Positions 4,252-39,833 of a DNA stretch of 64,000 nt are shown in pieces. The stretch is from Streptomyces sp. SLBN-31 (GTDB taxonomy: Bacteria; Actinomycetota; Actinomycetes; Streptomycetales; Streptomycetaceae). Position 1 is the first letter of the stretch, and each line of letters begins with the position of its first letter. The position numbers and the translations under genes were made by a program. The notes below the pieces were generated by a model. It worked only from the letters and a program-made list of their open reading frames with translations. It did not search any database and was not told the origin of the DNA. Where the stretch lies: positions 2,542,001-2,606,000 of the forward strand of contig NZ_VFNC01000001.1 in assembly GCF_006715395.1 (NCBI RefSeq), written 5' to 3'.

Positions 4252-4278
4252 GACCGGACAGGGGGCGATTCTGTGACA
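4252..4278 (-). promoter_or_regulatory. ECF41-type promoter of the sigma factor gene
   Basis: On the minus strand TGTCACA (4272-4278) is followed after 16 bases by GGTC (4252-4255), one base off CGTC. It lies 105 bp before the chosen ATG at 4147 and 78 bp before the alternative ATG at 4174. Confidence 0.65.
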
Positions 4279-13262: not shown

Positions 13263-13272
13263 CTGTATCAGG
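13263..13272 (+). promoter_or_regulatory. CTGTATCAGG motif, copy 1 (LuxR gene leader)
   Basis: This 10-mer directly precedes the GTG at 13274. The identical 10-mer occurs 56 bp before the S8 protease gene (19074-19083). It contains CCTG-N3-CAGG symmetry here. It is either a shared regulator site or a -10 region. Confidence 0.4.
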
Positions 13273-13273
13273 C

Positions 13274-13297
13274 GTGAGTACTCGCACTCGTACTCAC
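13274..13297. promoter_or_regulatory. Inverted repeat GTGAGTAC-N8-GTACTCAC at the LuxR gene start
   Basis: Perfect 8-bp arms with an 8-bp spacer. If translation starts at GTG 13298 rather than GTG 13274, this palindrome is fully upstream and would be an operator. The repetitive STRTRTH that it encodes looks unlike protein, which favours that view. Confidence 0.5.
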
Positions 13298-15133
13298 GTG
13301 ACGACTTTCGAACGGGACGCGAAAACCCTTGAACTGCCCTGGCGGTTCACCGGCCGTGAGGACGAACTGGACCTGATCCGCCGGTCCCTCACCGCGGGTC
13401 ACCACGGCATCGTGGTCACCGGCCCGGCCGGCTGCGGCAAGACCCGGCTGGTGACCGAGGCCGTGCGCGGCGGCGACCGCGCCCGCGCGGCCGGTACGCC
13501 CGAGACCCGGCACATCCCGTTCGCCGCGTTCGCGCACCTGCTGCCCGAGTCGGTCTCCCTGCACCGCGCCGTCCAACTGCTCTCCGGGGTGCGCCTGTTG
13601 CTGGTCGACGACGCCCATCTGCTCGACGACGCCTCGGCCGCCCTCGTCCACCAGCTGGCCGTGCACGGCCGCACCCGCCTCATCGTCGTCGCGGCGGACG
13701 GCGCACCGTGCCCCGCCGCCGTCGCCCGGCTGTGGACCGGCGAACTGCTGCCGCGCCTGGCCCTGGAGCCGCTGCCCCGCGAGGACATGGAACAGCTCCT
13801 CGCGGCCGGCGTCGGCGGCCCCGTGGAGCCGCTCACCCTGCGCCGGCTGCTCCACCTCGCCCAGGGCGATCTGCGGCTGCTGCGCGACCTGGTGGACGCG
13901 GTGCGCGAGCGGGCACCGCACACACGCGGGAAGGACACCGACGCCTGGACATGGCGCGGCCCGGTCCCGGTGACGGCGGCGATCCGCGAACGCACCGCCG
14001 AGGCCCTGGCCCGTCCCTGCCGCGAGGAGCGCGCGACGCTCGAACGGCTCGCCTTCTCAGAGCCCTTGCCGCTGCCCATGGACGACCTCGACCTGCGGGC
14101 CCTGGAAGCCCTGGAGGCCGACGGCCTGGTCACGGCCGACGACCCCGGCGGCGCCCGCCTCGCCCACCCCCTGCACGGCCCGGTGCTGCGGGCCGCGGCC
14201 GGCAGGCTGCGGGCGAGGCGGCTGGCCCGCACCCCCGACCAGTGCGGACCGGCGCTCGCCGCCGAGACGGCCGCTCTGACCGCGCGGATCGAACAGACCG
14301 ACGTACGCGTGCTGCCGGCCCCGGTGGGGGAGTGGCTGGCGCACGAGGGCGCGCCCGTACCGGCCGCAGACGCGGCCGTGCGCGCCCGGTTCTCGCGGCT
14401 TCGGGGGGAGCTGCGGGAGGCGGCGGCCTGGGCGGGGGAGGGACTGCGGAACGCGCCGGGGGACGCGTCCTGCCGCAGCGAACTCGCCCTGGCCGCCGCG
14501 CAGTCGGGGGACGCGGCCACCGCCCAGGAGGCGGTCGCGGGGCGGCCGGAGCTCCAGGAGCCGGCCGCATGGCTGGCGGCGGCCCGCGGGGACGTGGAAG
14601 GGGCGGCGCTGGAGGCCTTCGACGGGCGGGACGCGTACGCCCTCTACGACGCCGTACGCCTCGGCGCCCCCGACAAGGTCGCCGGACGCCTCCCCGAGGG
14701 CGGTGTGTTCGCGCGGCACGCCGACGCGCTCGCCCGGGGCGACGGGCCGGAGCTGGTCCGGGTGGCCGAGGCGCTGGAGGAGCGCGGCTTCGAGCTGTTC
14801 GCGGCCGAGGCGCACGCGCAGGCCGTACGGGCGCACCGCGACCCGAGCGCCGCCCGCGTCGCACGCACGCGTGCCGCCGCCCTCGCCCGCCGTTGCCAGG
14901 GCGCCCGCACCCCGGCCCTGTCCGGGCTGGTCCTCGGTGAACTCACCGCCCGCCAGCGGCAGATCGTCACTCTCGCCGCCGCCGGTCTGAGCAACCGGCA
15001 GATCGCCGAACAGCTCACGCTGTCCATCCGGACCGTGGGCAACCACCTCTACAGCGCCTACGCCCGCCTCGGCGCGAACGACCGGGCGGCGCTGGTGTGG
15101 CTCGTGGACCTGCCGGACGCCCGATCGGCCTGA
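13274..15133 (+). CDS. LuxR-family regulator with N-terminal AAA/STAND-type ATPase
   Basis: The protein has 619 residues from GTG 13274 (611 from GTG 13298). An ATPase module starts near residue 25 with FTGREDELDLI, Walker A GPAGCGKTR (about residue 52) and Walker B LLLVDDAHLL. The middle is Ala/Arg-rich helical repeats. The C-terminus is a LuxR helix-turn-helix, LTARQRQIVTLAAAGLSNRQ and SIRTVGNHL. It is shorter than classical LAL regulators (about 900 residues) because the repeat region is reduced. It is divergent from the HQxxH metalloprotease. Its leader shares a 10-mer with the S8 protease operon, which may tie it to that cluster. Confidence 0.88.
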   Translation: MSTRTRTHVTTFERDAKTLELPWRFTGREDELDLIRRSLTAGHHGIVVTGPAGCGKTRLVTEAVRGGDRARAAGTPETRHIPFAAFAHLLPESVSLHRAVQLLSGVRLLLVDDAHLLDDASAALVHQLAVHGRTRLIVVAADGAPCPAAVARLWTGELLPRLALEPLPREDMEQLLAAGVGGPVEPLTLRRLLHLAQGDLRLLRDLVDAVRERAPHTRGKDTDAWTWRGPVPVTAAIRERTAEALARPCREERATLERLAFSEPLPLPMDDLDLRALEALEADGLVTADDPGGARLAHPLHGPVLRAAAGRLRARRLARTPDQCGPALAAETAALTARIEQTDVRVLPAPVGEWLAHEGAPVPAADAAVRARFSRLRGELREAAAWAGEGLRNAPGDASCRSELALAAAQSGDAATAQEAVAGRPELQEPAAWLAAARGDVEGAALEAFDGRDAYALYDAVRLGAPDKVAGRLPEGGVFARHADALARGDGPELVRVAEALEERGFELFAAEAHAQAVRAHRDPSAARVARTRAAALARRCQGARTPALSGLVLGELTARQRQIVTLAAAGLSNRQIAEQLTLSIRTVGNHLYSAYARLGANDRAALVWLVDLPDARSA

Positions 15134-15249: not shown

Positions 15250-15289
15250 GTAGAGGATGCCCACGACGTCGTCCCGAGGAGAGGCAGGC

Positions 15290-16207
15290 ATGACCAGGAC
15301 CGAGGAGTTCCAGGAGCTGCGGCCGCTGCTGTTCTCGATCGCCTACCGCATCCTGGGCAGCGTGAGCGAAGCGGAGGACGCCGTCCAGGAGGCCTGGCTG
15401 CGCTTCGAGGGCGCGCCGGCCGAGCCACGGTCCGTGAAGGCCTACCTGTCGGCCACGGTCACCCGGATCTCCATCGACGTGCTGCGCTCAGCTCGCGTGC
15501 GGCGGGAGCACTACGTCGGCCCGTGGTTCCCGGAGCCGCTGCTCGCCGACCCCTACGAGGACCCGGAGCGTGCGGCGGAGCTGGCCGACTCCGTGTCGAT
15601 GGCCGCCCTGCTGTTGCTGGAGCGGCTCAGCCCGCTGGAGCGGGCGGTGTTCGTCCTGCGCGAGGTGTTCGACTTCGGCCACCCCGAGATCGCGTCGGCG
15701 GTGGGCCGCTCGGAGGCCGCCTGCCGCCAGCTCGTGGTGCGGGCCCGGCGCCACATGGCCGCAGGCCGGCCCCGCTTCGACGCCGACCGCAAGGAGCGTC
15801 AGGAGCTGGCGTCGCGGTTCTTCGACGCCCTGCGCGAGGGCGACGTCGCCGGCCTGCGCGACCTGCTCGCCGCCGACGTGTCGATGGTCGGCGACGGCGG
15901 CGGCAAGGCCCCGCAGCTGGCCCGCGCGGTCATGGGCGCCGACAACGTCTCCCGGCTGCTCGCCTCCGTCCTGCCCCGGATGGCCCGTATCGACGTGACG
16001 TTCGAGCCGCACGAGCTCAACGGCCAGCCGGGCGCGGTCTTCCGCGACCGGGACGGCAGGGTGCTGCACACCCTGGCCCTCGACGTCCTCGACGGCCGGA
16101 TCCAGGCCATCCGCCTGGTGATCAACCCCGACAAACTCGCCCACCTGGGCCCGGTGGCAGACGCCTGGGCGATCTCCGCCGAGCTCAAGCGAGCACCGCG
16201 GGGGTGA
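15290..16207 (+). CDS. ECF41-type RNA polymerase sigma factor, second copy
   Basis: The protein has 305 residues. It has sigma2 (LLFSIAYRILGSVSEAED), the linker motif WFPEP (WLPEP in the consensus), sigma4 (FGHPEIASAVGRSEAACRQL), and the SnoaL-like extension with DGGGK and NPDKL, both intact. GAGGAGAGGCAGGC precedes the ATG at 15290. Unlike the first copy it has no carboxymuconolactone decarboxylase, oxidoreductase or epimerase gene beside it, so its targets must be elsewhere or shared with the copy at 3251. The perfect ECF41 promoter in front suggests positive autoregulation. Confidence 0.9.
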   Translation: MTRTEEFQELRPLLFSIAYRILGSVSEAEDAVQEAWLRFEGAPAEPRSVKAYLSATVTRISIDVLRSARVRREHYVGPWFPEPLLADPYEDPERAAELADSVSMAALLLLERLSPLERAVFVLREVFDFGHPEIASAVGRSEAACRQLVVRARRHMAAGRPRFDADRKERQELASRFFDALREGDVAGLRDLLAADVSMVGDGGGKAPQLARAVMGADNVSRLLASVLPRMARIDVTFEPHELNGQPGAVFRDRDGRVLHTLALDVLDGRIQAIRLVINPDKLAHLGPVADAWAISAELKRAPRG

Positions 16208-16423: not shown

Positions 16424-19027
16424 TCAGGCCGCGCCGAAGGCCGTGAAGGCCCAGCCCGTTGCCTGGTGGAGGGCGTCGTCCGGCAGTGCGGTCCGTGCGT
16501 CGCGCAGTGACTCCGCCAGGGACAGGCCCGCGCTGAGCCCCTTGTGCAGCGCCAGCATCAGGGGCACCACGGCGTGGTCGTTGACGGGCGCGCTGCTCGC
16601 CACGACCCCCGCCGTGCCCAGCGGCAGCAGCGCGGTGACCAGACCCAGCAGCTCGTCCGCGCCGACCGAGGCGAAACGAGCGGTGTCGCAGCTGGAGAGG
16701 ATGATCCGGTACGGGCTGCGGTCCAGGCGCTCGAAGTCGTGCACGATGAGCGGCCCGTCCGCCATCCGCAGCGAGGAGAACAGGGGACTGTCCGCGCGGA
16801 AGGTGCCGTGCGCGGCGAGGTGGACGAGCGTGGCCCCGTCGAGTTCCTCCAGCACCCGCGGCACGCGCGCGTGCTCGTGCTCCAACAGCACCGGTCTGCC
16901 GTACCGGCCGACGAGTTCGGGCACCTCCGCACCACCGGTGGCCAGGCCCGGACCGCGCACCAGCACATGGCGGCCACCCGGCGGCGGCTCGGTCTCACGC
17001 GCCCGCAGCCAGCTGCCCGCCGACGGCGACACGCTCAGCACCCGCTCGCGCAGCGCCGGCAGCAACGCCCACGGCACCCGGTGCAGCCGCCCCGGCGGTA
17101 CGACGACCACGGGCCCGGAACCCAGGTGCGCTACGGCCGGCCCCAGCAGCAGCTCCTCAAGGCGGCGGCCCATCTCCTCCACCAGCGGAAGGCGGGCCTC
17201 CGCCCCGGGGTGGGCCAGACGCCGCAGCCCGGCCTGCACATGCTCGGCCTCCACCTCGGCGTCGGCCAGCAGCCCCGCCTCGAACCGGCGCACCCGCCCG
17301 TCCCCGCACAGCAGCACCTGCACCCGCCCGTCCAGCACGGCCAGCTCCACCAGCCGCGTGCCGCCCAGCCCGGCCAGGAGCCGGGCGGGGTCGAAGCGGC
17401 GCTCGTCGCCGGCCGCGTCACCGCGCATGTGCAGGGTGCGGGAGCGGATCTCCCGCTCCAGGCGCCGCTGCTCACGCTCCAGGGCGGGGATGGGGCGGCC
17501 GTCGCTGCGGGCCTCCTCCGCGCGGGCCGCGATCTCCCGGAAGGCGGTCAGGCTGCCGAGCAGCGCCTGATCGGCCGGGGGCCGGGTGGGCGGCGTGGAC
17601 AGCACGGTCGCCCGCCAGCGTTCGCTCCACGTCAGCAGCCGCCGCGGCGCGCCCGAGTCGAGGCTGACCCGCTGGGCGAGCGCGGCGAGTTCCGCACCCT
17701 GCGCGGTGGCGCGGGCCCGCAGCTCCGAGGCACCCAGGGTCGTGCGATGGTCGTCGAGCACGTCCAGCCCGCGCCGGCACGCCTCCAGCACGCCCCGGCC
17801 CGAACCCGCGGCCCGGGCCCGCAGCGCCTGCGCCGCCCAGCCCGTCATCCGGGCCAGCGGAGGCCCGCTGTGCCGGCTGCGGGCCGCGACGGCCAGATGC
17901 CGCTCCGCGTCCGCCCGCCAGCCCAGCCCCAACGCGATCCGGCCCGCCAGCAGCGAGGCCTCCGGTGCGGCCGGCGCGCCGAAGGCGGCGAGCCGGTCGG
18001 CGACCGCGGCCGCGTCCGCGACCAGCCGCCCCGAGCCGCGCCCGGCGGCCAGCCGCGCCTCGATGAGCACCAGCCTGGCGTGCGTCTCCCACCAGGTGCG
18101 CCGCTGCCCGGCGAACAGCCGTACCGCCAACGCGGCGCGGGCGATCGCGGTGTGCGCGTCCCCCGCCAGCCGGGCCGCCCGCGCCGCGACCAGCAGCAGC
18201 TCCGCCTTGCGCGTCGACTGGCCGCCGATCCGGTCCAGCGCCCCGATCGCCGCGTCCGCCTCGGCCAGCGCCTCCGGCACCAGGCCCGCGGCCATCAGCA
18301 CCTCGCAGCGCCGGATGTACAGCATGAACGACGGCGTGCCGAGCTTGAGGTAGCGCTCCTCGGCCTCGTCCAGCAGCCGCAGCGCGGCCGGCACGTCCCC
18401 CTGCCGGAACGCGGCCAGCCCCCGGCTCTCGACGACGTCCGCCTTGTCGTGGTCCTGCCCGGTGGTGTCCCACAGCGCCTCCGCCGACGCGAAGTCGGCG
18501 TCCGCCCGCTCCACCGCGCCGAGCGCCAGATGCACGGTCGCCCGCAGGGTCAGCGCCCGCGCCGTCCAGATGACGTCGTCGGCCTGCCGCAGCACGGGTA
18601 TCGCCCGCCGCACGTCCTCCAGGGCCTCACGGTGCCGGCCCAGCACCCAGGAGGCGTACGCCCGCCGGAACAGCACGCGCGCGCGGGCGTGCCCGCTGCT
18701 GACGGCGACACCCCGCTCCAGGGCCTCCAGGCCCTGCCGGGTGCGCCCCGCGTGGATCAGGGCCACGCCCAGCGCGGCCAGCACGTCCGCCTCACGCTCG
18801 GGGTCCTGGGCGCGCGCGGCAAGATCACGGGCGCGGCGCAGATGGCGCAGCGCGATCCTGAGGTCGCCCCAGTCCCGCTGCCAGATGCCGATCGCCTGGT
18901 GCGCCACGGAGGCGCTCCACGGTGACGGATCGGACTCCAGCACGTCCTGAGCCCGCGCCAGAGCCTCGTTCGGGGCGGCGAACACCATCGGCAGCAGTTC
19001 GAGCACCGAGTCGCTTCCCGCTGTCAC
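16424..19027 (-). CDS. TPR-CHAT protein (caspase-like protease)
   Basis: The protein has 867 residues from GTG 19027 (GTG 19063 would add 12). Residues 1 to about 500 are Ala-rich helical repeats of TPR type. The C-terminal CHAT domain (about 590-865) has the caspase-like His in LVHLAAHGTF (His740) and Cys in IILSSCDTA (Cys780), so the dyad is intact. A TACCAT -10-like hexamer ends 7 bases before GTG 19027, suggesting a leaderless mRNA. It is divergent from an operon encoding an S8 protease, a sigma factor and a small protein. CHAT proteases are processing or death effectors in several bacterial conflict systems, including the TPR-CHAT of type III-E CRISPR. Its role here is inferred from the neighbours. 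Confidence 0.88.
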   Translation of the reverse strand: MTAGSDSVLELLPMVFAAPNEALARAQDVLESDPSPWSASVAHQAIGIWQRDWGDLRIALRHLRRARDLAARAQDPEREADVLAALGVALIHAGRTRQGLEALERGVAVSSGHARARVLFRRAYASWVLGRHREALEDVRRAIPVLRQADDVIWTARALTLRATVHLALGAVERADADFASAEALWDTTGQDHDKADVVESRGLAAFRQGDVPAALRLLDEAEERYLKLGTPSFMLYIRRCEVLMAAGLVPEALAEADAAIGALDRIGGQSTRKAELLLVAARAARLAGDAHTAIARAALAVRLFAGQRRTWWETHARLVLIEARLAAGRGSGRLVADAAAVADRLAAFGAPAAPEASLLAGRIALGLGWRADAERHLAVAARSRHSGPPLARMTGWAAQALRARAAGSGRGVLEACRRGLDVLDDHRTTLGASELRARATAQGAELAALAQRVSLDSGAPRRLLTWSERWRATVLSTPPTRPPADQALLGSLTAFREIAARAEEARSDGRPIPALEREQRRLEREIRSRTLHMRGDAAGDERRFDPARLLAGLGGTRLVELAVLDGRVQVLLCGDGRVRRFEAGLLADAEVEAEHVQAGLRRLAHPGAEARLPLVEEMGRRLEELLLGPAVAHLGSGPVVVVPPGRLHRVPWALLPALRERVLSVSPSAGSWLRARETEPPPGGRHVLVRGPGLATGGAEVPELVGRYGRPVLLEHEHARVPRVLEELDGATLVHLAAHGTFRADSPLFSSLRMADGPLIVHDFERLDRSPYRIILSSCDTARFASVGADELLGLVTALLPLGTAGVVASSAPVNDHAVVPLMLALHKGLSAGLSLAESLRDARTALPDDALHQATGWAFTAFGAA

Positions 19028-19073
19028 CCTGAGGATGGTAACGGCCCTGGTGGCGCCCCACACCCGTTTGGCG

Positions 19074-19083
19074 CTGTATCAGG
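19074..19083 (+). promoter_or_regulatory. CTGTATCAGG motif, copy 2 (S8 protease operon leader)
   Basis: Identical 10-mer to that at 13263-13272, 55 bp before the S8 protease ATG and followed in both places by a CACGTGAC sequence at a different spacing. Confidence 0.4.
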
Positions 19084-19138
19084 TGACGCCCACGTGACTC
19101 TGAACTGACGACAGCTGCCTCGAGGGGGAGGACACGCC

Positions 19139-20575
19139 ATGGCACCACAGCGATTCCACGAGCAGTTCGACCAGATCCAGCGCTCCATGCCCGCCGTACC
19201 GCTGGCCCTGGGACCCGACGACTCCGCGGAGTTCGTCTACGAGAAAGGCGTGGTCCTCGCCCGTGACGGCGAGGAGGCCCGGCTCGTCGAGGACACCGTG
19301 CGCACGCACTTCACCGAGGCGACCGGCCTGAGCGGCGACCAGGTGCGCCGGGGGAGCCCGGAGACCAACCGTTCGGGAATCACCCGCATCCAGGTCGGCG
19401 ACCCCGGCCACGGCGACCGGCGCGGCGACCGGGCCGTCGCCCACGCGCTGCGCGCCCTGCGCGGGCACGAGTCCCGCGCCGGCCGCCGCCTGGTCAGCCG
19501 CAACCACGTGGTGTCGCTCGCCGTGAACTCCTGTCCCGGTGACGAGCCCGTGCCCGCCCCGCTCACCCAGGGCACCAATCCCGCCGCGGCGGAGGGCGGC
19601 CACGACGCCGACACGGCGGTCGACGTCCTCGTCGTCGACAACGGACTCACCCACGACTACTCCCTGGTGCCGCTGCTCGCCCACGTCCAGGGCGACCTGC
19701 ACGGCACCGAGACCGACGCCCAGGGGAACCTCCTGCAGTACGTCGGGCACGGCACGTTCATCGCCGGGCTCGTCGCGGCCGTCGCCCCCAACACGAACAT
19801 CACCGTCCGCAACACCCTCAACGACGCGGGCGCCGTCCTGGAGGACGAGTTCGGCCAGCGGCTCTTCGACGCGGTCGACCGCAACGGCTGGCCGGCGATC
19901 CTCAGCCTCTCCGCGGGCACCTCCAACGGCCGTGACGACGGCCTGCTCGGCGTCGCCGCCTTCATGGAGGAACTGCGCGAGCAGAACACCCTGCTGGTCG
20001 CGGCGGCCGGCAACAACTCCAGCGCCAGTCCCTTCTGGCCCGCCGCCTACGCCGGCCTGCCCGAGTACGCGCACGCGGTGCTGTCGGTCGGCGCGCTGCG
20101 CACCGACGGCGAGTACGGCGCCTGCTTCTCCAACTACGGCCCCTGGGTGAAGGCCTACGCCCCCGGGGAGCGCCTCACCAGCACGCTGACCGGCTTCGAC
20201 GTGCCCGTGCCGTACCTCTACCAGCACAGCACCTACGACGCCTGCAGGTACAACTTCACCTACGCGTGCACGTGCCAGTCGCCGCGCCACACCGGTGTGC
20301 TGAGCGAGGCGGGCACGCCCACCTCGGGCAAGGCCGATCAGGTGATGTTCGAGGGCTACGCGCACTGGAGCGGCACCTCCTTCGCCACCCCGGTGGCGGC
20401 CGGGATGATCGCCGCCTTCATGACGGCCGACAAGGAGGGCGACGCGCGCGCCGCCCGCAAGCAGCTGCTCGCCGGGGACACGGCGTACGCGGAGGTGCGC
20501 GGGGCACACGTGCCGGCGCTGCTCCCGGCAGGCTGGCGTCCGTCGCCGGTCACGCAGCTGGTGCCTCCCGCATGA
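19139..20575 (+). CDS. S8-family serine protease, apparently cytosolic
   Basis: The protein has 478 residues. The subtilisin triad is complete: Asp167 in VVDNG, His204 in GHGTFIAG, Ser414 in GTSFATPVAAG, with the oxyanion Asn292 in AAGNNS. The N-terminal ~150 residues are an unassigned pro-region or interaction domain with no signal peptide or membrane segment. Several Cys lie in a loop before the Ser (residues about 368-382). GGGGGAGGACACGCC precedes the ATG. The sigma gene follows after 59 bp. Divergent pairing with the TPR-CHAT gene suggests that the two proteases act in one pathway, one perhaps activating or restraining the other. Confidence 0.9.
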   Translation: MAPQRFHEQFDQIQRSMPAVPLALGPDDSAEFVYEKGVVLARDGEEARLVEDTVRTHFTEATGLSGDQVRRGSPETNRSGITRIQVGDPGHGDRRGDRAVAHALRALRGHESRAGRRLVSRNHVVSLAVNSCPGDEPVPAPLTQGTNPAAAEGGHDADTAVDVLVVDNGLTHDYSLVPLLAHVQGDLHGTETDAQGNLLQYVGHGTFIAGLVAAVAPNTNITVRNTLNDAGAVLEDEFGQRLFDAVDRNGWPAILSLSAGTSNGRDDGLLGVAAFMEELREQNTLLVAAAGNNSSASPFWPAAYAGLPEYAHAVLSVGALRTDGEYGACFSNYGPWVKAYAPGERLTSTLTGFDVPVPYLYQHSTYDACRYNFTYACTCQSPRHTGVLSEAGTPTSGKADQVMFEGYAHWSGTSFATPVAAGMIAAFMTADKEGDARAARKQLLAGDTAYAEVRGAHVPALLPAGWRPSPVTQLVPPA

Positions 20576-20634
20576 GGTGCGGAACGGTCCCGTCCACGGC
20601 GTACGATGACAGGCCGTACACGAGGAGTGGGACC

Positions 20635-21210
20635 GTGGACCGAGCACATGTCGGCGCGCTGGTCCGGACCGCCGTCGACGGCGACGCGGCGGCCTGGAAG
20701 GCGCTCGTGGAGGGGCTGAGCCCACTGGTGTGGTCGGTCGTGCGCGCACACCGGCTCTCCGACGCCGACGCGCACGAGGTCTACCAGACGGTGTGGTTCC
20801 GCTTCGCCCAGCACCTGGGGCGCATCCGCGAACCCGACAAGGCCGGCTCGTGGCTGGCCAGCACCGCACGGCACGAGTGCCTCAAGGTGCTCAAAAGCCT
20901 CAAGCGGCTGACTCCGACGGACGATCCGCAGCTGCTGGACCGGATCAGCGAGGACCGTACGCCGGAGCAGTCCTTCCTCGACCTGGAGGAGGCCGCCGCC
21001 GAGTCGGAGCGGATCAGGCACCTGTGGCAGGAGTTCGAGGAACTGGGCGAGCGGTGCAGGCAGTTGCTGCGCGTCCTGATGGCCACGCCGCCGCCCAGCT
21101 ACCAAGAGGTGTCCGTTGCCCTCGGGATCGCCGTGGGCAGCATCGGACCGCTGCGCCAGCGCTGTCTTCGGCGTCTGCGGGCGCGGCTCGAGGCACGGGG
21201 AGCGGTGTGA
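20635..21210 (+). CDS. RNA polymerase sigma-70-like factor (ECF type)
   Basis: The protein has 191 residues from GTG 20635, which has CGAGGAGTGG upstream. Sigma2 covers about residues 12-85 (LVRTAVDGDAAAWKALVEGL, then YQTVWFRFAQHL and SWLASTARHECL). Sigma4 covers about 125-185 (PPPSYQEVSVALGIAVGSIG, then RQRCLRRLRARL). It sits between the S8 protease gene and a small gene 4 bp downstream. It is probably expressed from the S8 operon and could activate the divergent CHAT gene. No zinc-binding anti-sigma factor is adjacent, so a protease or the small partner may control it. Confidence 0.88.
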   Translation: MDRAHVGALVRTAVDGDAAAWKALVEGLSPLVWSVVRAHRLSDADAHEVYQTVWFRFAQHLGRIREPDKAGSWLASTARHECLKVLKSLKRLTPTDDPQLLDRISEDRTPEQSFLDLEEAAAESERIRHLWQEFEELGERCRQLLRVLMATPPPSYQEVSVALGIAVGSIGPLRQRCLRRLRARLEARGAV

Positions 21211-21214
21211 GGGC

Positions 21215-21709
21215 ATGGACGACGACATGAACGGCATGGACGACATGGACGGCGAAGAGCCCCTCGACGGCGAGGACTTCGGCCTCGACCTGCTGGAGGA
21301 GGAGCTCCGCCGGGCCGCGGCCGTCCTCGACCCCGTCCCGGCCGAGCTGCGGCAGATGGCCGTGGAGGCGTTCGCCCTGCACGACCTCGAGGCGCGGCTC
21401 GCCGAGCTGACCTTCGACTCGGTGGTCGACGCCATCCCTGTCCGGGGAGCCGCCGACCCGCCGCGGATGCTGACGTTCCACGCGGGCGGCGTGACCGTCG
21501 ACGTGGAACTGACCGCGCACGGGCTGATGGGCCAGGTGCTGCCCCCGCAGTCGGCCCGGATCGAGGTGCTGACCGGCCCGCACCCGGGCGCCCCGCTGAC
21601 GACCGACGAGATGGGACGCTTCACCCACGACCGGCCCCCTGCCGGCCCCTTCGCCCTGCGGCTGCGGACCGGCGAGGGAGTGCTCGTCACCGACTGGCTG
21701 ACGGTGTGA
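21215..21709 (+). CDS. Small acidic accessory protein of the sigma/S8/CHAT cluster
   Basis: The protein has 164 residues. The first 35 residues are very acidic with repeated Asp/Met (DDDMNGMDDMDGEE). Residues 40-85 form amphipathic helices (LLEEELRRAAAVLDPVPAEL, then ARLAELTFDSVVD). The C-terminal half is beta-rich and ends VLVTDWLTV. I recognise this only as a type that follows sigma factors in actinobacteria, and no function is established. Start ATG 21215 lies 4 bp after the sigma stop, so the genes are tightly coupled. A regulator of the sigma factor or a substrate of one of the two proteases are the natural hypotheses. Confidence 0.75.
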   Translation: MDDDMNGMDDMDGEEPLDGEDFGLDLLEEELRRAAAVLDPVPAELRQMAVEAFALHDLEARLAELTFDSVVDAIPVRGAADPPRMLTFHAGGVTVDVELTAHGLMGQVLPPQSARIEVLTGPHPGAPLTTDEMGRFTHDRPPAGPFALRLRTGEGVLVTDWLTV

Positions 21710-39702: not shown

Positions 39703-39833
39703 CCCCGTACGAGCGGTCGACTGAGGCGATGCGCGATCCCCGTACGAGCGGTCGACTGCGGTGACGCGCGATCCCCGTACGAGCGGTCGACTGCGGTGAC
39801 GCGCGATCCGCCGTACGAGCGGCGTTGTGCGAT
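39703..39833. repeat. Tandem 35-bp repeat array (3 full and one partial copy)
   Basis: Units at 39703-39737, 39738-39772 and 39773-39807, then a 26-bp partial copy. Units 2 and 3 are identical; unit 1 differs at three bases. Each unit carries CGTACG and GTCGAC palindromes (CCCGTACGAGCGGTCGAC...). It sits in the same gap as the 29-bp repeats. No spacers are present, so this is not a CRISPR array. The rest of 39530-39894 holds nothing else I can assign. Confidence 0.8.

Follow-up and report, generated by a model that had tools for sequence, protein, structure and literature searches.

The 64,000-nucleotide (nt) stretch of Streptomyces sp. SLBN-31 DNA analyzed here (the window, with positions counted from its first letter) encodes a TPR-CHAT cysteine protease, an S8 serine protease, an extracytoplasmic function (ECF) sigma factor and a small partner protein. 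We propose, with moderate confidence, that these four proteins constitute a cytosolic protease/anti-sigma/ECF-sigma switch that is independent of CRISPR. The prediction builds on features read from sequence, namely gene linkage, catalytic conservation, an invariant arginine residue, a promoter motif and a fifth gene, from which we infer binding, cleavage, the order of events and biological function. The four genes are as follows.

16424..19027, minus strand: TPR-CHAT cysteine protease, 867 residues; PF12770 and TPRs; the open reading frame extends to 19063
19139..20575, plus strand: S8 (subtilase) serine protease, 478 residues; PF00082; Asp167/His204/Ser414
20635..21210, plus strand: ECF sigma factor, 191 residues; regions 2 and 4 (Pfam, NCBIfam)
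21215..21709, plus strand: small partner, putative anti-sigma factor, 164 residues; isoelectric point 4.23 (conservation, AlphaFold2 model)

The gene set and its conservation

The CHAT gene lies on the minus strand and is divergent from the S8, sigma and partner genes on the plus strand, and all four open reading frames are intact at these coordinates. The CHAT protein matches PF12770 (7e-28) and TPRs in Pfam, and the S8 protein matches PF00082 (1.1e-17). The sigma gene product matches Sigma70_r2 of Pfam (2.9e-10) and sigma70-ECF of NCBIfam (7.9e-19), in line with the sigma-70-like factor recognized by the initial annotation, which had also described the four proteins as free of signal peptides. 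A simple hydropathy scan agrees, revealing no clear signal-like or membrane segment in any of them. PADLOC models yield only generic matches for S8 ('subtilase', 4.6e-8; IetS, 6e-5) and no match for CHAT, sigma or the partner. Chains named 'CHAT domain protein' in the PDB, which we take to be Csx29, are matched by the CHAT domain only (E 7e-6 to 9e-6).

Are the two proteases catalytically competent? The GTG codon at 19027 is most likely the start of the CHAT gene, because the downstream protein sequence is conserved in Streptomyces from that point and several relatives have no start codon upstream. Counted from this codon, the CHAT dyad is His740/Cys780, exactly as initially annotated (His752/Cys792 if the longer frame from 19063 is used), and the S8 triad Asp167/His204/Ser414 is equally exact. 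Both sites are near-invariant. The triad is retained at Asp in 141/141, at His in 141/141 and at Ser in 140/141 distinct homologues, the sole exception being a Pro at the Ser column in L246, a locus with a second S8. The dyad is retained at His in 146/146 and at Cys in 145/145 homologues whose alignment reaches these positions; the other members of the 149 distinct sequences are truncated. This near-invariance argues that both catalytic sites are kept by selection. Two tandem S8 matches beside CHAT are observed in the Jiangella-type loci L236-L238, L246 and L255.

A genus sample of 121 Streptomyces genomes was screened with the sigma protein, an orthologue being defined by E < 1e-60. Matches at 1e-10 are found in 81 of these genomes and an orthologue in only 36. 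Five genomes have a distant copy, two of them together with an orthologue; in the remaining genomes, other ECF factors match weakly or nothing matches at all. The distant paralogues of L066-L068 and L070 (38-42% identical) are located among biosynthetic-type genes, as judged by eye. Wide stretches around the sigma gene were fetched for 34 of the 36 orthologue genomes, the source genome being omitted and one contig being too short. The retention of the genes as a group had been set beforehand as a test of the initial annotation, and all four genes are found in identical arrangement in 34/34 of these relatives, with the CHAT match only partial in L045 and L054. Identities to the relatives are approximately 85% for CHAT, 74% for S8, 86% for sigma and 69% for the partner, and the sigma and partner genes overlap by four bases in 23 loci. 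Partner homologues occur in S. viridochromogenes and S. antibioticus, among other species. A gene for N-formylglutamate amidohydrolase inside the fetched stretch in 29 loci suggests that the set occupies one chromosomal place in Streptomyces.

The set extends far beyond Streptomyces. The partner profile matches in 59 of 246 class genomes, representing 31 of 103 genera. The sigma gene precedes the partner gene in 53 of the 55 non-Streptomyces loci fetched, which ties the accessory protein to the sigma factor as initially anticipated. All four genes are located within 9 kb in 27 of these 55 loci, or 27 of 38 outside family f19. Sigma and partner alone are found in 21 loci, including 17 of family f19, S8 is absent in four, and three further loci have other combinations. 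Seven or more gene orders exist among other Actinomycetota when split CHAT frames are disregarded. L111 and L141 have a partner gene with S8 (plus CHAT in L111), and no sigma gene was found in the stretch fetched. Family f19, which includes Jiangella, keeps the four genes as two pairs far from each other, one of sigma and partner and one of S8 and CHAT. The CHAT locus was fetched for 16 of the 17 f19 genomes with sigma and partner only; S8 is divergent beside CHAT in 15, and the sixteenth locus is interrupted by a contig end. In single-contig f19 genomes, such as G176, the two pairs are megabases apart.

The CHAT family is present in 59/59 partner-positive genomes and in 34/187 others, in counts that ignore kinship. 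Furthermore, a broader profile detects sigma and partner beside CHAT in 18 of 20 CHAT loci from those 34 partner-profile-negative genomes. A CHAT scan of named genomes, which share some members with the class-genome set, provides 80 loci from at least 544 confirmed, and 67 of them carry all four genes. These four-gene loci include metagenome assemblies of Acidimicrobiia and Egibacteraceae, which belong to classes other than that of Streptomyces. Actinomadura rubrisoli (L168, 4368-15848) has the complete four-gene set twice, as adjacent copies in inverted orientation, and Geodermatophilus chilensis (L204) contains the set with two partner genes.

The small partner as a putative anti-sigma factor

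The partner of the window has no Pfam, NCBIfam or PADLOC family match. It is very acidic, as initially annotated, but the acidity resides mostly in a variable N-terminal tail (12 of the first 26 residues) and is not a conserved feature. This tail is followed by a mainly helical N-terminal part, a linker that contains Arg77 and a C-terminal beta-sandwich. An AlphaFold2 model of the partner alone (predicted local distance difference test (pLDDT) score, 87.5; predicted template modelling (pTM) score, 0.68) consists of helices, one strand (61-68), a loop (73-83) and the C-terminal sandwich. Unlike membrane-bound anti-sigma factors and zinc anti-sigma systems, such as RsrA, the partner has neither a clear membrane segment nor a cysteine. 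It hence lacks HxxxCxxC, the motif of the zinc anti-sigma domain family, in agreement with the absence of a zinc anti-sigma factor noted initially.

The partner homologues of Jiangella bear a carboxypeptidase label and display a weak match, below the Pfam cut-off, to CarboxypepD_reg in the sandwich; the window's own partner has no match to this family. CarboxypepD_reg is a beta-sandwich domain that is not known to be catalytic. Because of the label and the weak match, this small partner is probably what the ECF54 literature calls a 'carboxypeptidase'.

Arg77 is identical in 145/145 distinct partner homologues, and each of the other linker positions between 70 and 83 exceeds 2 bits of entropy. 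The residue after Arg77 is Ser, Gly or Ala in 131 of the 145. When counted without the use of the Arg column of the alignment, Arg followed by Ser, Gly or Ala occurs shortly before the sandwich in 136/145 homologues, compared with 19, 33, 47 and 69 of 145 in four control stretches. Given that clan CD proteases often cut after Arg, Arg77 is a natural candidate for a predicted cleavage site in the partner.

A fused sigma-partner model provides a second view of the pair. The sigma factor in this model is nearer to anti-sigma-bound than to polymerase-bound shapes, in a comparison that has no sigma-alone model as a control, and the model is compatible with an anti-sigma-bound sigma factor. Together, gene pairing and modelling point to the small partner as the probable anti-sigma factor of the sigma gene product.

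A shared promoter motif and a fifth gene

Four further features of the window bear on the transcription of the set.

19075..19100, plus strand: promoter motif TGTATC-N17-CTC before the S8-sigma-partner operon
13264..13289, plus strand: promoter motif TGTATC-N17-CTC before the LuxR-type gene, putative sigma target
13298..15133, plus strand: LuxR-type ATPase regulator, 611 residues; weak AAA_16 ATPase match and C-terminal GerE helix-turn-helix (Pfam)
19035..19040, minus strand: TACCAT, possible -10 box of the CHAT gene (intergenic alignment)

The gap before S8 in Streptomyces contains CTGTATCA...GGCTCTGA, and TGTATC[A/T]-N15-17-CTC is found at the S8 operon in 33/34 Streptomyces relatives. Of 140 distinct non-Streptomyces sigma operons, 53 have the strict motif no more than 500 nt from the operon start. 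In the same 140 operons, the reversed pattern is found in 0 and the antisense pattern in 3, and approximately 200 letter permutations yield a mean of 0.04 (maximum 1). The motif occurs in 9 of 17 families tallied and at 8 of 17 f19 sigma loci. In G147 (family f28), in which the pairs are also apart, it precedes S8. Elsewhere, matches to the motif are at background by count. TGTATC-N17-CTC is thus likely to be the putative promoter of this ECF sigma factor. TACCAT is conserved in most rows of the Streptomyces S8-CHAT intergenic alignment, and the CHAT gene of Streptomyces may possibly have its own housekeeping-type, leaderless promoter, different from the sigma motif. Roughly twelve Streptomyces genomes (part of L287 and L289-L303) have a third class of sites, TGTATCAGGG...CTC, that is not near the set, and several of these sites share a downstream GTGAAAGGCAACGGGGGA with no convincing gene there.

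The initial annotation suggested a self-contained switch. This description is contradicted by the LuxR-type ATPase gene, which shares the promoter motif. From the first base of the motif to the GTG start of this gene the distance is exactly 34 nt, which predicts a leaderless transcript. The motif is found at this gene in 29 of the 30 Streptomyces genomes that contain both the gene and the sigma factor (the exception is G068; the motif-gene relation in L040 was judged by comparing places), and the start is at +34 in 28 of the 29 and at +35 in one. In G011 and G014, the gene is on a contig separate from the set. In G173, of another family, one contig holds both the set and the gene, 35-40 kb apart, with the motif and the +34 spacing retained, and in L102 the likely start is at +71. 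Of the 121 Streptomyces genomes, 31 contain the gene, and 30 of these belong to the 36 that are sigma-positive (Fisher p 2.5e-21, a value that ignores kinship). Motif, spacing and co-occurrence with the sigma orthologue provide strong evidence that the LuxR-type gene belongs to the sigma regulon, and by these sequence features it counts as the fifth gene of the set in most Streptomyces in which it occurs. PADLOC matches for this gene are in the helix-turn-helix only.

Candidate output genes are found in two lineages. In L168, the two copies of the set are followed, behind the motif, by a gene for a patatin phospholipase, which matches PF01734 (1.2e-30) and 'Effector' phospholipase models of PADLOC (to 6.5e-15). 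In L204 (4258-11474), the motif at 4258 is followed by a gene for a 154-residue protein (start at +34) and then by a gene for a Tle1-like phospholipase (PF09994, 4e-28). These two distant single loci hint at membrane-damaging effectors. The conflict or programmed-death role suggested by the initial annotation may apply, but the PADLOC matches are generic and phospholipase genes lie behind the motif in these two loci only.

Proposed switch, alternatives and related systems

How might the four proteins work together? The small partner would bind the sigma factor via its helical N-terminal half and keep it inactive, as gene pairing and the model suggest. The sensor of a signal would be the TPR-CHAT protease itself or a protein associated with CHAT. 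Cleavage of the small partner would follow within the linker, the position after Arg77 being the simplest choice. Of the two proteases, CHAT is the more probable cutter, since some stretches with CHAT yielded no S8; S8 may amplify the cleavage or bring it to completion. The freed sigma factor would transcribe from TGTATC-N17-CTC promoters, both in its own operon, supplying more S8, sigma and inhibitor, and, in Streptomyces, at the LuxR-type ATPase regulator gene, promoters that are strongly supported by sequence. The LuxR-type regulator would in turn drive output genes. The best-supported model, as a prediction, is that proteolysis strips the partner from the sigma factor, as envisaged by the initial annotation.

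Several observations weigh against this switch. Gly134 and Phe136 of the partner sandwich are likewise identical in 145/145 homologues; invariance by itself is therefore no proof of a cut site, and that of Arg77 could be structural. The linker near the Arg is modelled with low confidence in the fused model (block means of 55-59) and with higher confidence in the partner-alone model (84 for residues 71-80), and residues 61-68 form a strand in one model and a helix in the other. The fused model has a pTM of only 0.67 and no reported inter-domain error. Moreover, the anti-sigma-bound sigma factors of 1or7, AlgU-MucA (6in7/8z6g) and BldN-RsbN (6dxo) fit the fused model over one domain only, whereas SigG1 (7qh5), listed without an anti-sigma factor, fits both domains (145 residues; root-mean-square deviation, 4.8), so the closed sigma shape of the model is an ambiguous indicator of anti-sigma binding. 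At 13 loci with sigma, partner and CHAT, no nearby S8 was detected (4/55, 4/80 and 5/20, some ending at contig ends). The strict motif is missing in 87 of the 140 operons and 8 of the 17 families tallied, and none is seen in the S8-CHAT gap of the f19 loci. Finally, for Csx29, the best-studied relative, which belongs to a CRISPR system discussed below, the cleavage site in Csx30 is reported as not conserved in the part of the source available (PMC11106740).

The set may instead lack an anti-sigma factor altogether. The initial annotation knew of no published description of the four-gene set, but its neighbourhood is already described in the passage on ECF54 in a 2022 review, which lists this group as proteolysis-controlled without an anti-sigma factor from its carboxypeptidase, subtilase and CHAT context and attributes the group and its neighbourhood to Huang 2015 and Casas-Pastor 2021 (PMC8999054). 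The same passage states degradation of the sigma factor for ECF54, alongside AntA and ClpXP (PMC8999054). Applied here, the proteases would degrade the sigma factor itself and keep it low, and the small protein would be an adaptor or unrelated. We find this quite improbable. The partner gene follows the sigma gene almost without exception, also when CHAT and S8 are encoded at another place in the genome, a pattern typical of cognate anti-sigma genes; the residue that never varies in an otherwise variable linker belongs to the partner; and the 'carboxypeptidase' of the ECF54 context is probably this same partner.

Somewhat less improbable, though still unlikely, is an arrangement in which the sigma factor and its anti-sigma partner answer another signal, and CHAT and S8 are downstream weapons on other targets, with S8 made once the sigma factor fires. 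The location of S8 behind a sigma-type promoter in Streptomyces and G147 and that of phospholipase genes behind the motif in two distant loci would be consistent with such weapons. However, the CHAT gene of Streptomyces appears to be driven by a separate promoter of another type, and no motif is seen before the f19 S8-CHAT pair, so that the regulon does not include the proteases in every case; Arg77 would also be left unexplained. We give the lowest probability of all to the partner being a positive cofactor or sensor subunit, such as a CHAT specificity factor or an RNA polymerase adaptor. Its beta-sandwich could bind a ligand, cleavage could activate as well as inactivate it, and the closed sigma shape is not exclusive to anti-sigma complexes; against this, the modelled sigma factor resembles anti-sigma-bound more than polymerase-bound shapes, a comparison made without a sigma-alone control.

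The protease/anti-sigma/sigma switch that we favour relates to several known systems. The window sigma factor presumably belongs to ECF54, because its context matches: a subtilase, CHAT and the putative 'carboxypeptidase' (the partner) are conserved near the sigma gene. In the genus of the ECF54 model SFT86700.1 (Geodermatophilus amargosae), G. chilensis carries the set; G. amargosae itself is not named among the 120 listed of 4407 proteins. The ECF54 passage and our set share an ECF sigma factor with these three genes nearby, but the passage assumes no anti-sigma factor, whereas the 'carboxypeptidase' here looks like a regulatory beta-sandwich and is probably one. In the literature found, ECF54 control has so far only been proposed, and the present analysis adds a candidate anti-sigma factor, a predicted promoter, a first target gene as a putative regulon member and a candidate cut site specified to one residue.

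In type III-E CRISPR, Csx29 cuts Csx30, an inhibitor of CASP-sigma, and sigma motifs lie within the locus, according to the text available (PMC10028731). Our set resembles this system in its TPR-CHAT protein with a His/Cys dyad, its putative inhibitor of an ECF-like sigma factor and a sigma motif in its own locus, and differs in its extra S8 protease and in the invariance of the candidate cleavage site. A scan of window positions 1000-40000, the part of the genome covered, finds no CRISPR array; three tandem copies of a 37-nt repeat at 39703-39809, with 35-nt spacing and no spacers, are not such an array. The partner profile retrieves no Csx30 chain among PDB sequences at E up to 1, the presence of Csx30 in the PDB being unchecked, and PADLOC finds helix-turn-helix matches only in nine window neighbours, no profile search having been aimed at Cas7-11. 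The switch logic appears, by analogy, to match the Csx29/Csx30/CASP-sigma arm, and type III-E membership is not claimed because no array is nearby and no Csx30 relative was found.

In the Calp system, a protease frees a sigma factor, CalpS, from a soluble inhibitor, CalpT, as proposed here. Its protease, CalpL, is of the Lon type, and this other protease family, a cyclic oligoadenylate sensor and a CRISPR link are, in the portions of the sources available, Calp features that distinguish it from our set (PMC12751052, PMC11417357). Proteolysis of an ECF sigma inhibitor is also a proposed likeness to RseA and RsiW, as mentioned in the available text (PMC10028731).

If our proposal is true, a stand-alone counterpart of the type III-E protease/anti-sigma/sigma arm occurs widely among Actinomycetota, and a natural substrate outside CRISPR can be assigned to caspase-like CHAT proteases. 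A more far-reaching version, which we consider doubtful, is a widespread CRISPR-free 'Craspase-like' cascade of Actinomycetota. An Arg-specific caspase-like TPR-CHAT protease would cut the anti-sigma factor after the invariant Arg, and the ECF54 sigma factor would fire a positive loop via S8 and switch on the LuxR-type regulator, joined in certain lineages by phospholipases that attack membranes (patatin, L168; Tle1-like, L204), as a host-defence or self-killing programme.

The window contains another ECF sigma factor gene at 15257-16207 on the plus strand, between the LuxR-type and CHAT genes. It has no match in the fetched loci of any of the 34 Streptomyces relatives; its product displays a weak SnoaL-like C-terminal match and is, by name, presumably ECF41-like.

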